Shown piece after piece: positions 9,090-55,210 of a DNA stretch of 57,005 bases. The stretch lies in assembly GCA_002715765.1 (NCBI GenBank), contig PAZY01000034.1:100479-157483 (forward strand). Direction: 5' to 3'. The translations under genes and the position numbers were made by a program. How positions within the stretch are numbered: position 1 is the stretch's first letter; every line of letters begins with the position of its first letter. Source of the stretch: Rhodobiaceae bacterium. Its GTDB lineage: Bacteria; Pseudomonadota; Alphaproteobacteria; Parvibaculales; Parvibaculaceae. The notes under the pieces were generated by a model. That model was given only the letters and a program-made list of their open reading frames with translations, was not told the DNA's origin and searched no databases.

Positions 9090-9106
9090 TGGTGGAGCCA
9101 GGCGGA
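9090..9106 (+). repeat. Left attachment site core (attL), identical to tRNA-Ala 3' end
   Basis: TGGTGGAGCCAGGCGGA is identical over 17 bp to 55135-55151, the 3' end and T-arm of the tRNA-Ala gene, in the same orientation. AGAGGA precedes both copies with one extra T here. The first bases also pair with downstream GCTCCACC (9108-9115), so attL forms a hairpin. Together with the integrase next to the tRNA this marks the two ends of an integrated element. Confidence 0.85.
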
Positions 9107-49149: not shown

Positions 49150-49227
49150 CTCTATTCTCCTCTTCAATGCCATTACATTTGTCCGCGGTAGTTGATATTT
49201 ATCATGGGACTGTAGTCCGTGGTTTTA

Positions 49228-50532
49228 TTAACGACAAGATGGTGATTTTACGACATGCAGATTCAGCGTGTCGTTGCTCACAATCTTCGAAAACTCAGGG
49301 TTGCCAAGGGTCTGTCTCAGGAGGCGTTGGCAGTGGATGCTGGGATTGATCGGACCTATGTCAGCCGATTGGAGCGCGGCCTCGAAAATCCCACTGTTGC
49401 CGTACTTGAGCGCATGGCCACTGCTCTGTCTGCTCAAATCGCAGACTTCTTTGTTCAACCGCGGACTGGGGAGAAGTTCCCCGAGCCGCTCCGAGGTGGT
49501 CGAAAACCGAGCCAATAGGGGTCGGTCGTAACGCCTGAGACTGTTGAGAGATCGATGCCCCGTCTGCCGCGCGATTGCGTTCGCGCCTGCGCCGAGGTTC
49601 ATCTGACTTGTGACAAAACCCGCTCTTAGGCTGTGACTGGAAAATCCTTGTGAGTTGAGACCAATCTGTTTGACCCTATTTTGGATCATTCGGCTAAGCG
49701 ATCGGACGGACAAGGACACACTCTTGTCACCCGGGGCACCATTGAACGGCCTGAACAAGACCCCTCCCTCATACCCACACTTGTTGATCCAATCCTCCAA
49801 GGCTTGTGTCGGGCATGCCGTATTCGGGAGCCTTGGAATTGCAATCCACCGTCCCCTGGCCATCTGATCAGTTTTGGACTTCACCAGACGGAGAAGCGCT
49901 CCGCCCTCGTCGAAGACGCAGTCCTCTGCGCGAACGTTTAAGAGTTCAGAGCCGCGAAATGCTCCGTAGAAGCCAACCAACAACAGTGCTTTGTCTCGAA
50001 TGTCTTTCCGGCTTAGCCCCAATCCCAAAGCAATTCGTTCCACTTGCTCTAGGAGGAGCGGGGTTGCTTGTTTTTGCTTCACGCCATGGTGCCGTTCAAT
50101 TCCTCTAAGGACCCGCTTAACGAGAACTGATTTCGTCGGATCGCTATGCCCTTGATCTCTGTGCGCCCAAGCGATCGCCGCCATCCGGCGTTTCACAGTA
50201 CTGACAGCCAACCTGCCCGCACTTTCTGCGAGATATGAGGCCACTTGTTCCGGACTGGCCGGGATCGTCCCACCCCAAGCCTCAAATTGCTCGAGGTCTG
50301 AGCGATAGGCTTGCCTCGTATTTTGCGCCTGAGATTGAGCGAGATAGAAATCCACCGGATTGGGGTGGTTCTGACTTCCATTTTCGACCGAGTTTCTCCC
50401 CTCTTCCCCGGTTTCAGCTTTTCTTTTTTGTTTTGCGTTTAAGGAGTAATTGCAGATGTCTGCAAATATTCTGGCGCATAGTGCCTTTTTGGGGCGTTTA
50501 AGAGAGTCCGATAAGTGAGAATTATTGGACAT
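49228..50532 (-). CDS. Tyrosine recombinase (second integrase) with antisense C-terminal extension
   Basis: 434 residues from ATG 50532. The core-binding domain (NTRQAYRSDLEQFEAWGG) precedes a catalytic domain with Arg in GAFRGSELL, His-x-x-Arg in HSLRAGF, His in TGHRSLNSLRRY and the Tyr in that same segment. About 96 codons follow the tyrosine and lie antisense to the XRE gene at 49255-49518; they show no domain. The start overlaps the previous gene as TAATG. It is 3-4 kb from the main integrase and may act on a different site, such as inversion or resolution. A 16-bp palindrome lies at codons 23-28. Confidence 0.88.
   Translation of the reverse strand: MSNNSHLSDSLKRPKKALCARIFADICNYSLNAKQKRKAETGEEGRNSVENGSQNHPNPVDFYLAQSQAQNTRQAYRSDLEQFEAWGGTIPASPEQVASYLAESAGRLAVSTVKRRMAAIAWAHRDQGHSDPTKSVLVKRVLRGIERHHGVKQKQATPLLLEQVERIALGLGLSRKDIRDKALLLVGFYGAFRGSELLNVRAEDCVFDEGGALLRLVKSKTDQMARGRWIAIPRLPNTACPTQALEDWINKCGYEGGVLFRPFNGAPGDKSVSLSVRSLSRMIQNRVKQIGLNSQGFSSHSLRAGFVTSQMNLGAGANAIARQTGHRSLNSLRRYDRPLLARFSTTSERLGELLPSPRLNKEVCDLSRQSSGHALKYGNSGIFEAALQSADIGPINPSIHCQRLLRQTLGNPEFSKIVSNDTLNLHVVKSPSCR
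49255..49518 (+). CDS. XRE-family repressor, antisense to the recombinase 3' end
   Basis: 87 residues: a clear Cro/CI-type helix-turn-helix (VAHNLRKLRVAKGLSQEALAVDAGIDRTYVSRLERGLENPTVAVLERMATALS) and a short tail. Its whole length lies opposite the last part of the recombinase gene, so only one of the two is an ordinary reading frame. The HTH match is strong, so this is a real gene. Likely a small regulator of the element. The 16-bp palindromes at 50450, 52941 and 53153 are candidate operators. Confidence 0.85.
   Translation: MQIQRVVAHNLRKLRVAKGLSQEALAVDAGIDRTYVSRLERGLENPTVAVLERMATALSAQIADFFVQPRTGEKFPEPLRGGRKPSQ
50450..50465. promoter_or_regulatory. 16-bp palindrome TTGCAGATGTCTGCAA, copy 1
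   Basis: Near-perfect dyad inside the N-terminal codons of the recombinase. Read on the plus strand, AAGGAG precedes its central ATG, which opens only a 20-codon frame. Same sequence as the copy covering the rep start codon. Confidence 0.7.
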
Positions 50533-51659
50533 TAGGACTCCCAAATCTCTTGTCTGAGCCGATTGAGATGAGGAAGTGCCTCCCGCATCGCCCCCAACGC
50601 TTCCGGGATCACCTCCGGGGGCAATCCGGACCACCTCGCCCGCGAGATGTATTTGAGTTCGTCATAGAGAGGGTCTGAGATTTCCTGCGTGCAAATACCT
50701 CCCTCAACCACAAACAAGAGTGCTGACAGGGCTTTCGTCTTTGCGGAACGGGATTCAAACGGTTTCAAGAGAGATTGCAGACGAGGTGTGGCCCAGAGCA
50801 GAAGCTCCAGAGCCTGCGTCCCTGTCCGTGTATATCCGTCGAGTGCATAAAGCGGGACATCATATGTGTCCCGACTGGTGTCCCGATACGTACCCGCGGG
50901 ACAGGTAAGGGTGAGTGAGAATGATCTCTGGCGGGGACTAACTAGCTTTGTGAGGGGGAAGAGCACAGGAAGAAGACATTGAGTGGTCTTTCGGCCCTGG
51001 ATACAGATCGCGAGTTCCTCTTCGTCGACAAGCTCGGCCTCATACATCTCAACTAGGAATGCATCGCACTCCCCGGCGACAACCGTCTTGAAGCGCCTTC
51101 GGGGAACAGGCCGCTCACACCGCCGGATTAGGTCTCCGGAGCGGTCCAGCAGTTCTCTTAGTTCGGGAGACCACCTTCTTCGTTCCCTCGGTGAGGGTTG
51201 GTCCTTCTCGAGTACGCCCGCGAACATGTAGGTTTCATCAACACGTCGATCCCGAGGCACCTCACAGAACTGACGGATCAGCGCCTGCGCCACGACCATG
51301 TCACCGCCCAGATCGGAGCGCACCTTCTTAGAGCCGCATGCGGCAATGACCTGCCCCCGCAAACCAATGGGTGCGGACCCAAAGTCTTCAAAGACAGCGA
51401 CAGCTAAACCCTTCCAGAGCCTTTGAGGATCACCTAGAAGCGATGCTGCTGCCTGCATCGCCCGATCCGCATCCGCACGCCTCAGCGCCTTTTGCAACGC
51501 CGAGCGGGCGACGTACGGGTCAGTGATGTCTGGGAGCTTCTTCAAGGGGCTTGGGAGCGCGTCTACCGCGTCTGAAAGGAGGCCTTTATATCTCTCCAGG
51601 CTCACGCCCGGTCCCACGATCTCTTGAGCATGGATTGAGCGTAGACCTGTGACTTCCAA
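50532..51659 (-). CDS. RarA/MgsA C-terminal-like protein without ATPase domain
   Basis: 375 residues from TTG 51659. Residues 45-100 (YVARSALQKALRRADADRAMQAA ... LWKGLAVAVFEDFG) resemble the oligomerisation domain that follows the AAA+ core in RarA/clamp-loader proteins, but no Walker motifs are present. The frame stays open upstream of the TTG for about 105 bp to a stop, with protein-like content (SDSYEDSWTIGKRASSYKITGTK in two parts) and no ATG, so the true start is unusual or lost. Its stop overlaps the recombinase ATG. Function unknown; replication or recombination of the element is likely. Confidence 0.7.
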   Translation of the reverse strand: MEVTGLRSIHAQEIVGPGVSLERYKGLLSDAVDALPSPLKKLPDITDPYVARSALQKALRRADADRAMQAAASLLGDPQRLWKGLAVAVFEDFGSAPIGLRGQVIAACGSKKVRSDLGGDMVVAQALIRQFCEVPRDRRVDETYMFAGVLEKDQPSPRERRRWSPELRELLDRSGDLIRRCERPVPRRRFKTVVAGECDAFLVEMYEAELVDEEELAICIQGRKTTQCLLPVLFPLTKLVSPRQRSFSLTLTCPAGTYRDTSRDTYDVPLYALDGYTRTGTQALELLLWATPRLQSLLKPFESRSAKTKALSALLFVVEGGICTQEISDPLYDELKYISRARWSGLPPEVIPEALGAMREALPHLNRLRQEIWES

Positions 51660-51981
51660 AGGAAAGAGAAATCGGCCTTTAGTCCCAGTTATTTTATAGG
51701 AACTGGCTCTCTTACCAATCGTCCAAGAATCTTCATATGAGTCTGAGCGCTAATGAGAGCTGTTTACCGCCGCGCCATGCATTCCTGTCCTGCCACCAGT
51801 CTCGGGACGACAATAACTTAGTCGTGTTTCTGTCGTACCGCTCTTGTGGACTTATCTGAACAGCACTCAATACACCCGAATAGAAGGAGCTTGAATTATT
51901 CTGTCGACTGACTAAAATAGAACTGTCAAAGACAATATATTCAATTCATGACCCTCAGTGATCACAGATAAAAAACAGCAA
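51660..51981. other. Gap between RarA-like and rep genes
   Basis: The first 105 bp may still be coding for the RarA-like protein (open frame without start). The rest is AT-rich with no gene or repeat that I can see. It would be the usual place for a promoter of the recombinase unit. Confidence 0.4.
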
Positions 51982-52950
51982 TCATTTTCCCAATAGAAGC
52001 CCATTTGTCTCCAAACTGTTTTTCCAGAACACCCAGATGTCGTCGGGCCTCCACAAAAGGTCTGACGATTTCTTTATGACCTTATGAAACTCTCCGCGCT
52101 CCTTGGTCGGTAATAGTTTCAGCGCTCCTACCAGACCCCTATACCGACACGCATCCTGGAACAATGCCCAGACATGGGGTTCACCTGGCGCAACACATCC
52201 ATCCATGTCCACCAACTCGACCTTCGTGAGTGGATTTTTCAGAGAAGCCAATTTCTTGAACGGTTTTTGGGTCTGCACCCGGCACTCGAAACGCGTGTAC
52301 TTTGCCTCTCCGTACTGGTTCACCCCGGCATCCAAGGACTTTCCAGTCTCCTGCGCCTGAACCTTTTTGTCGTAGAGGTAGGTGGTACTACCCTTGCTCT
52401 TCTTGTTGAGATAGACGGTCTCAATTTTTCCGCCGCTACCAAAGTAGGCATTAGTCTTCCCGGTGAACTTGTGGTCTATCAGTATGTCCTCAGGATCAAT
52501 ATTGAGTATGTCCACCGCGACATCTATTCGGGTGACCTTAGCTTCTTCTGCAAGCATCCCTTCGCTGATTTGATTCTCAGAAACTCCCGACAATAACTCC
52601 CACACAAGCTTCAACTCCAGCGGCTGCAACAAGCCCGGATTCAATTCCACCCGCAGGAAGTTGTTTGTCTTCGATTGAGGTTTTACCTGTACCAGCACGT
52701 TCGCTTGTTTGAAAGCCATCTCATAGGACCGCAGATACTTCGTGGAGCCATTCTTATTGGCCTTAGTGGCGGCAAAAACCTTGTCCGCCAACCCTCCACT
52801 TTCCGACGCAAGAGCCTCCAACTTCTTGAGCACATGAGATTCAAGAGGTGTTGGAACAGGCACCGTGAAAGCCAAACCATCAATGATTGGCTTGGAAACG
52901 GTAACCTCAAACGCGTTGGGTCGGATGTAAGAATAGGCAATTGCAGACAT
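51982..52950 (-). CDS. Replication initiation factor-like protein (Rep_trans type)
   Basis: About 322 residues from ATG 52950. The frame extends to 53142, but that part is not protein-like and the ATG at 52950 is embedded in a 16-bp palindrome. The core has VTRIDVAVDILNIDPEDIL, AYFGSGGKIETVYLNKK and STTYLYDKKVQAQETG, matching the Rep_trans/phage replication-initiation pattern in which a Tyr or Asp in the YDK region nicks the origin. It probably starts rolling-circle replication of the excised element. The palindrome over the start codon suggests tight repression. Confidence 0.8.
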   Translation of the reverse strand: MSAIAYSYIRPNAFEVTVSKPIIDGLAFTVPVPTPLESHVLKKLEALASESGGLADKVFAATKANKNGSTKYLRSYEMAFKQANVLVQVKPQSKTNNFLRVELNPGLLQPLELKLVWELLSGVSENQISEGMLAEEAKVTRIDVAVDILNIDPEDILIDHKFTGKTNAYFGSGGKIETVYLNKKSKGSTTYLYDKKVQAQETGKSLDAGVNQYGEAKYTRFECRVQTQKPFKKLASLKNPLTKVELVDMDGCVAPGEPHVWALFQDACRYRGLVGALKLLPTKERGEFHKVIKKSSDLLWRPDDIWVFWKNSLETNGLLLGK

Positions 52951-52956
52951 CTGCAA
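52941..52956. promoter_or_regulatory. 16-bp palindrome TTGCAGACATCTGCAA, copy 2, over the rep start
   Basis: The rep ATG (52950-52948 on the minus strand) is within this dyad. It has one base pair of asymmetry. Repressor binding here would block translation start or transcription entry. Confidence 0.75.
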
Positions 52957-53302
52957 TTTATGATGCTGGTTGTGCTGCGGCTTCCCTGCCCCCGTATCGG
53001 ACGCTAGGATTTTTCTGATCGTGACAGGCACATTCCCTCCATGGAAACCCCCTTCTATTCTAGAAAGAAACTCCCCAAAACCGCTACCTATTACTACCCA
53101 GAAATTCAAATCGATACAGTGGGCACGCCCGCCCAAACCCACGATTTCGGATTTGCAGACGTCTGCAATCGATATAACTCGGGCTTGTTAGACCCTCGAG
53201 AAGTGTCTCACCTGACTAAAGAGCATGTGCCCCCCTAAACACACCAGAAAAAGAGGCTCGAGAACCACTACCTACCGCTACCCACATAGTTCGCCTCCAT
53301 GA
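52957..53302. other. Gap between rep and integrase, with palindrome copy 3
   Basis: About 350 bp without a supported gene. A perfect 16-bp palindrome, TTGCAGACGTCTGCAA, is at 53153-53168. The DNA would hold the rep promoter and the integrase 3' side. A TCTAGAAAGAA-like AT-rich run is present but no -35/-10 pair is convincing. Confidence 0.5.
53153..53168. promoter_or_regulatory. 16-bp palindrome TTGCAGACGTCTGCAA, copy 3
   Basis: Perfect dyad, one or two bases different from copies 1 and 2. It lies about 200 bp upstream of the rep start. Confidence 0.75.
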
Positions 53303-55042
53303 CTAACCGACATAAAGATGACTTAGATCAAGGTCTGGGTAAGCGATCTTTGCGACATGTTCCATGAGTTGTTCAGGCTTATGCCCAGACCCGTAATTGT
53401 CGCTCACACCTTTGGACACCGACCAGCCGCCGAGGTCTCGCAGAACGAAGTCTGGAGCTTCTGCCTCACGAAGCGCATCTCTAAAGTTGTGACGAAAGCT
53501 ATGAAACGATACCCGCCCATCCTTCTTAATCACTTTGGGTAGGAATCCATCAGAGAACCAATCTGCAATCCGGTCGCTCACGTACCCATAGCTCCCTGGC
53601 TTCAGTTCTGGGAACAGGTTTTTCTTGCCCGATTTTCGAACTCTATCCACATAGTCGCCTAGACCAAACTTCAAGAGTTCCGGGTGAACAGGAAATGCTC
53701 GACTACTCGTCTTCGTTTTCAGCTTCTTACCGTCCGCATCGTTCACATCGAAATAGAAATGTCCGCCCTTCATCTCCTTCAGGTCCGCAACTTTTAGCTG
53801 TGCAATCTCATTGGCCCGCATTCCTGTATAGAGAGCAATCAATGGAAACCAAAAGCGCGCACGACGAATGACATTTGGACCTGGTTTCGCGTAGTTCCGC
53901 CCATCGTCCACGCACCCTCGAAAGAGCGGCGCATTGAAGATGCGTTGCAGCTCTCCCGTCGCAAACGGACGCCTTGCCTCCGATGCTTTTGTCTTCTCAG
54001 ACAGCGGCTGGAGCCCTTCTGATGGAACTTGGGAAATACATCCTATACGCACACCGTGCTTCAACACAGCCGTCAAAGTACGGAGATAAGTGTTCTGAGT
54101 AATATGGGACAGCGTGGGCTTTCCATCTTTTGCTGCTTGCTCAGCAGCTTCTTCTATCGAAAGATCGCCATAGATTTTCTTTCGGTTGGATGGTGTTCGC
54201 GCCAAAAGCTTCCTGAATTTTTTGCAGGCCTCGTAGTCAATTTCCGCAACAAGCGTCGCTTCCCCGATGGCCTCTTTAACAAACATCGCCTCGGCCCCGG
54301 TACTATCGATGGTCTTCTGGCTGGTTCCTTTAACAACCGCCTCATCGCGGTAATCCTCAAGAAAGCGCTCAACCAGATCACCAAAGGTCATGAGGCTTTT
54401 TGGATTGCTCATTGGAGCGTGAACAAAAGCGGGGCTGACGGCCCCATCGGCAAAGAGCTGGTCGAACGCGCTTTGCTCATGTTCAGCCTTCAACCGCGCC
54501 ATATCCCGACGGTGGAGTTCCCTAAGCCCCCTAATGACCAGACTGTAGAATTGCGCGTAGCTGAAGATAGACGGATCAAACTTGAAGGGAATGTTCGCGA
54601 TCACTTCTTCTAGGATGCGGCTGTCTATTCCATGTTCTTTCAGAAAGCGTGGATCAGCGAGAGACGCCCAGTCCTGAGTACTTTCTGCCAACATCTCTTT
54701 TCGTTGACGATCCGTCTCTGGTGGGTCTTCAGCAAAACGTTTTTCAGCCTCCCCATCTTTCTTTTCAACAAAGCCCCTCACAAGCTTCATAGCGTCGGCC
54801 TGTGTCATGGCAGCAGGGTGCAGCTGCGCCTCAATTTTCTCATCAAAGTTGGCAAACAAAGCGTCGTACTCGACGTCTTTTTGCGCTCGCCGTGATGCAG
54901 CTTCTTTTGCACTGTTCGTCTTCAAACAGTCTTTAATGATGCTTCTGCCGAACAACTCGACATAAGGATTTGGTACCCGACGACGGTAGTAATAGGTCCC
55001 CTTGACCTTGATCAGTCGATAGGTTTTTGACACGGCTTTCAT
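53303..55042 (-). CDS. int: Site-specific tyrosine integrase (DUF6538 type)
   Basis: About 579 residues. The N-terminus is a DUF6538-like arm-binding part (MKAVSKTYRLIKVKGTYYYRRRVPNPY), the middle is helical core binding, and the catalytic domain has Arg in ALYTGMRANEIAQLK, His-x-x-Arg in HSFRHNFRDAL and the C-terminal GGWSVSKGVSDNYG with Tyr. ATG 55042 is chosen; ATG 55060 lies within the arm-type repeat. It lies next to tRNA-Ala, whose 3' end is its attachment core. It should catalyse integration and excision of the 46-kb element. Confidence 0.93.
   Translation of the reverse strand: MKAVSKTYRLIKVKGTYYYRRRVPNPYVELFGRSIIKDCLKTNSAKEAASRRAQKDVEYDALFANFDEKIEAQLHPAAMTQADAMKLVRGFVEKKDGEAEKRFAEDPPETDRQRKEMLAESTQDWASLADPRFLKEHGIDSRILEEVIANIPFKFDPSIFSYAQFYSLVIRGLRELHRRDMARLKAEHEQSAFDQLFADGAVSPAFVHAPMSNPKSLMTFGDLVERFLEDYRDEAVVKGTSQKTIDSTGAEAMFVKEAIGEATLVAEIDYEACKKFRKLLARTPSNRKKIYGDLSIEEAAEQAAKDGKPTLSHITQNTYLRTLTAVLKHGVRIGCISQVPSEGLQPLSEKTKASEARRPFATGELQRIFNAPLFRGCVDDGRNYAKPGPNVIRRARFWFPLIALYTGMRANEIAQLKVADLKEMKGGHFYFDVNDADGKKLKTKTSSRAFPVHPELLKFGLGDYVDRVRKSGKKNLFPELKPGSYGYVSDRIADWFSDGFLPKVIKKDGRVSFHSFRHNFRDALREAEAPDFVLRDLGGWSVSKGVSDNYGSGHKPEQLMEHVAKIAYPDLDLSHLYVG

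Positions 55043-55134: not shown

Positions 55135-55210
<76 letters not shown>

Follow-up and report, generated by a model that had tools for sequence, protein, structure and literature searches.

The operators of phage repressors and the stoperators of mycobacteriophages occur as several identical sites per element, some of them intragenic and proposed to stop transcription, and in this respect they resemble three copies of a 16 bp palindrome (P1 to P3, Table 1) in a stretch of DNA of 57,005 nucleotides from a Rhodobiaceae bacterium (assembly GCA_002715765.1, contig PAZY01000034.1), hereafter called the window. While stoperators are asymmetric and bound by a monomer (PMC9283540), P1 to P3 are perfect dyads, only three in number and confined to the replication and recombination core of their element. 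P2 in particular recalls the pT181 (Rep_trans) double-strand origin, which is likewise a palindrome within the gene for a Rep_trans initiator (PMC5703833), but pT181 possesses a single Rep-bound origin, whereas the element in the window carries three copies that are conserved independently of Rep. The C-boxes of restriction-modification controller proteins, which bind GAC and GTC halves (PMC3758141), offer a further comparison: the XRE protein of the element resembles such controllers and such a dyad is found at its gene, while P1 to P3 have TGCA ends and lack the GAC-N4-GTC spacing. The element as a whole is similar to strand-biased circularizing integrative elements and GInts in that it encodes two tyrosine recombinases and its core genes overlap (PMC10214605). 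Those elements are organized as IntA-Tfp-IntB-Srap, have been found in Gammaproteobacteria and have no HUH endonuclease; the genes recognised in the core of the present element are Int, Rep, P375 and Rec, with a Rep of the Rep_trans kind.

P1 to P3 lie in the core of a probable integrative island that spans about 46 kb (9090-55151) at a tRNA-Ala gene. This extent is suggested by the 17 bases at the end of the tRNA gene, which recur at the other end of the island, and by the short repeat AATGTGTACCAC a short way inside both ends; the tRNA was the sole match of an Rfam search. Int, rep, P375 and rec are encoded in this order on one strand, with the XRE gene past rec on the opposite strand. Pfam Rep_trans was matched in three of five Rep homologues and the Rep family profile retrieved 4cwe from the PDB (E 9e-14); MgsA_C was matched in two of six P375 homologues, and P375 retrieved RarA-type ATPases, also from the PDB (E 5e-6). 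P375 is like the C-terminal part of RarA without the ATPase part, and its gene overlaps or abuts that of a tyrosine recombinase in ten loci; an AlphaFold model of P375 alone (pLDDT 36) was left unused. At the overlap of the P375 stop with the start of rec, the first Rec residues are conserved. Judged by eye, the cargo of the island appears to include efflux genes of the RND type, a P-type ATPase for metals, a regulator of the MerR type and a type I restriction system.

Table 1. Features of the island core and ends, by position in the window
Feature	Position	Strand	Description
attL candidate	9090-9106		copy of the 17 bp repeat TGGTGGAGCCAGGCGGA
C-box-like dyad	49208-49217	.	GACTGTAGTC, 5' of the XRE gene
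rec	49228-50532	-	second tyrosine recombinase of the element; PF00589, E 1.8e-13
XRE gene	49255-49518	+	regulator of restriction-modification controller type; on the strand opposite the 3' end of rec; unlikely binder of P1 to P3
P1	50450-50465	+	TTGCAGATGTCTGCAA; covers codons 23-28 of rec (minus strand), encoding ADICN
dif-like inverted repeat	50507-50529	-	TCCAATAA-TTCTCAC-TTATCGGA; start of rec, inside the gene
P375	50532-51617	-	RarA/MgsA C-terminal-like domain; TAATG overlap with rec
rep	51982-53031	-	rolling-circle initiator, Rep_trans/pT181 kind
P2	52941-52956	-	TTGCAGATGTCTGCAA; rep codons 26-31, given a rep start at GTG 53031
P3	53153-53168	.	TTGCAGACGTCTGCAA; palindromic over its whole length; between Int and rep, 122-137 bp upstream of the rep GTG
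Int	53303-55042	-	tyrosine integrase (DUF6538), next to tRNA-Ala
attR candidate	55135-55151	.	17 bp repeat TGGTGGAGCCAGGCGGA at the 3' end of tRNA-Ala
tRNA-Ala	55135-55210		adjoins Int

The three copies are found exactly at the positions and on the strands given in an earlier, sequence-only reading of the window, and P2 is part of a 20 bp palindrome (52939-52958) with a 2-base centre. Throughout the 3.65 Mb genome, TTGCAGANNTCTGCAA occurs only as P1 to P3, all inside 2.7 kb and all in the island. When the window was shuffled 200 times at order 1, about four palindromes of the form 7+2+7 arose per shuffle, with no arm recurring even twice. A chance origin of the cluster was rejected on the grounds of this genome-wide exclusivity, the shuffles and the counts in relatives' loci versus control DNA given below, and a host global regulator was rejected as binder as the genome holds zero further sites. 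P1 begins 67 nt inside rec and P2 begins 75 nt inside rep (with the GTG start), so that two of the three copies are located at a similar depth among the initial codons of two core genes. Beside the sites, no good-quality promoter was found. Operators are usually perfect dyads with AT flanks.

The placement of P2 depends on where rep begins. The sequence-only reading had P2 enclose the rep start codon and suggested that replication is controlled at this codon; the ATG concerned, at 52950, has no Shine-Dalgarno sequence, and an in-frame GTG at 53031 is preceded by GGAGG 4 nt upstream. Counted from the GTG, the N-terminus fits the Rep of the related genome G243 gap-free, with 51 residues from the start to a conserved ID in both, and some Rep similarity extends upstream of the ATG; as the automatic five-way Rep alignment gaps this poorly conserved N-terminal stretch, the co-linearity is supporting, not decisive. 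A start at 52950 is therefore disfavoured and the most likely start, as predicted from these features, is GTG 53031, 81 bp upstream of the ATG in P2, which would put P2 inside the coding region and leaves control at the start codon unsupported. Nor does the 20-codon frame said to open at P1 encode a conserved peptide, a candidate that was rejected because G008, a genome of the same genus, keeps the Shine-Dalgarno sequence, the palindrome and the ATG, but the frame has only four codons (MSAI, stop).

Recurrence was assessed in ten loci with a P375-Rec pair, the window and nine further ones from eight genomes of the class; among the nine, Rep is encoded alongside in four and a related Int in three. 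The search for the motif in related elements, which the sequence-only reading had proposed, recovered perfect palindromes TGCA-N2-YR-N2-TGCA in seven of the ten loci; from the other three the motif is missing. The nine relatives' loci (155 kb) contain six such palindromes, all with a YR centre, versus 0.23 expected in shuffles, a count that is partly after the fact, since the window and the first relatives were already known when the pattern was drawn up. Relatives are few in number, and four come from one host family. In 563 kb of control DNA the palindrome was found zero times. Among 40 family genomes, perfect palindromes TTGCASAYRTSTGCAA are restricted to those where P375 is present (G000, G008, G022), with G021 one base off; a single match in G026 to the 16-base palindrome form has unequal arms. 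Rep relatives were not found in plasmids, phages and viral contigs, nor P375 relatives in plasmids and viral contigs, and scanning the species genome collection twice gave no confirmed relative.

The exact gene position of the palindrome differs among relatives. G008 has a single copy, AATTGCAGACATCTGCAATT, in rec and none at rep; it is identical base for base to P1 at the same position of rec, within an otherwise diverged stretch, and about 20 flanking bases are also conserved. In G022, TTGCACACGTGTGCAA is located between rep and P375, and G021 has this palindrome with one end base changed, while G243 carries TTGCAATCAATTGCAA at the end of rep. The copies TTGCACTTAAGTGCAC upstream of an XRE gene in G323a and GTGCAAGCGCTTGCAC inside rec in G404, about 665 nt from the rec start, fall outside a scheme of rep leader and early gene positions and are the least expected and least well placed. 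The inner dinucleotide is GA in the window and G008, CA in G022 and G021 and AT in G243. P1 to P3 probably belong to a wider class, TTGCA-N2-YR-N2-TGCAA, in Int-Rep-P375-Rec integrative elements. The set is real, element-specific and partly conserved and most likely consists of operators; it is ordinary in kind and unusual in its placement.

As a pT181-family origin is a cruciform-extruding palindrome inside rep, the palindromes might be sites of Rep binding and nicking, that is, a double-strand origin; Rep belongs to the Rep_trans/pT181 family, P2 resides inside rep as do pT181 origins (PMC5703833), and it folds as an 8 bp hairpin with the loop ATGT. We consider such an origin rather improbable, as the site does not follow the Rep lineage: G008 has the identical site, not near rep, with a Rep that is just 27% identical, and G021 keeps the site without a recognisable rep, which makes Rep an unlikely binder, while G243, the Rep of which is closest to that of the window, has a different inner sequence. 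Oppositely oriented copies would furthermore be unusual for an origin, and the hairpins have weak folding energies (z -1.6 to -2.1). An AlpA-like HTH_17 gene is found immediately upstream of rep in both G008 and G355 (L010:9242-9436, L012:10379-10597) and is absent from the rep leader of the window.

The sequence-only reading regarded the palindromes as the operator set of the element's repressor, the XRE protein. An operator set is consistent with the element-specificity of the sites, their recurrence at rep, P375 or rec in relatives and their form, which is that of sites for a dimeric regulator; the XRE protein as the binder lacks support. XRE genes are present in six of the seven motif-bearing loci (a weak one in G243) and in none of the three motif-less loci, and the palindrome of G323a lies 59 bp upstream of an XRE gene. 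The XRE protein of the window, however, matches the controller proteins C.AhdI, C.BclI and C.Esp1396I and, as in G008, has the recognition helix of controller proteins (DRTYVSRLERG) and its own conserved dyad GACTKTAGTC: GACTGTAGTC, followed by CGTGG, is located 37 bp upstream of the gene, and G008 retains it as GACTTTAGTC with CGTGGTTTTATTA after it. The XRE promoter and upstream region of the window, where GACTGTAGTC is present, contain no copy of the palindrome. The XRE proteins of G021, G022 and G323a constitute another group, no palindrome of this kind lies at the XRE gene of G021 or G022, and the GAC-GTC spacing in P3 is unfit for a controller dimer (spacing from PMC3758141). Being of the controller type with a conserved dyad of its own, the XRE protein is an unlikely binder, and operators of the XRE protein are a reading to which we assign a low probability. 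The entire XRE gene runs antisense to the 3' end of rec in G008 as well as in the window (49228-49518), and the two frames stay open in each.

P1 to P3 are best explained as operator or roadblock sites through which a putative dimeric regulator, encoded by the element, would couple rep and rec, a proposal that we regard as evenly poised. Sequence analysis shows the sites, that they are exclusive to the element and recur in relatives, and where they fall in the genes; binding by a protein, its dimeric state and repression are inferred. A homodimeric element-specific regulator would bind the dyads; at P3, in the rep leader, it would repress the rep promoter, and at P2, about 25 codons into rep, and P1, about 22 codons into rec, it would block elongation by RNA polymerase, so that replication and recombination of the integrated island would be held down together. 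Phages and restriction-modification systems provide examples of repressors and other proteins that halt elongation at internal sites (PMC9283540, PMC6237814). P375 would be the first candidate binder, although another protein of the element may take this role. It is ranked first as it is encoded in all palindrome-bearing loci and as its lineages match the inner-base variants (82% identity between the window and G008, 49% between G022 and G021), a match that is a correlation among few loci, which also have a host family in common. A rather unlikely reading is that the TTGCA-N2-YR-N2-TGCAA sites represent a hitherto undescribed control system of an island family, in which P375 or a partner reads lineage-specific dyads in the 5' parts of rep and rec and thereby couples rolling-circle replication to the second recombinase with its dif-like site inside its own gene.

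The 5' end of rec contains a second conserved block besides P1, the dif-like inverted repeat. Sequence comparison and a pattern search showed its consensus, TCCGATAA-YTCTCAC-TTATCGGA, at the P375/rec junction in most of the family, with the repeat also at L010:11810-11834, L055:3909-3933 and L056:10481-10505; it was not found intact in G355 and its arms are changed in G191. As the arms and the seven-base middle resemble a recombinase core site, the repeat is probably the core site of Rec within its own gene. P1, which is about 41 bp from the repeat (about 33 bp in G008), could be an accessory site beside this core, and P2 and P3 additional sites at which Rec or P375 binds for synapsis or to set the direction of recombination. 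That the two are the conserved blocks of this gene end accords with such a role; the distance between them varies, no core adjoins P2 or P3, and in most relatives the core is present but a palindrome near it is absent, so that accessory sites appear quite doubtful.

As sites of a regulator, P1 to P3 would provide a handle on silencing, replication and movement of Int-Rep-P375-Rec islands, of which the present one carries metal-efflux and type I restriction genes. The two inner bases vary by lineage, similar to immunity specificities, which leads to testable predictions on cross-regulation.

Two related tailed-phage contigs of IMG/VR, 3300033418_000001 (L152-L157) and 3300049841_000015 (L158, L159), contain TGCAGATGTCTGCA 28 and 8 times, with a TG centre in every copy, at about one per 3-4 kb and mostly within genes; the copies look like dispersed repressor sites. 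No protein in common with the island core was found on these two contigs, and a common origin of the phage sites and the island is thus not claimed. A third contig contains two copies.
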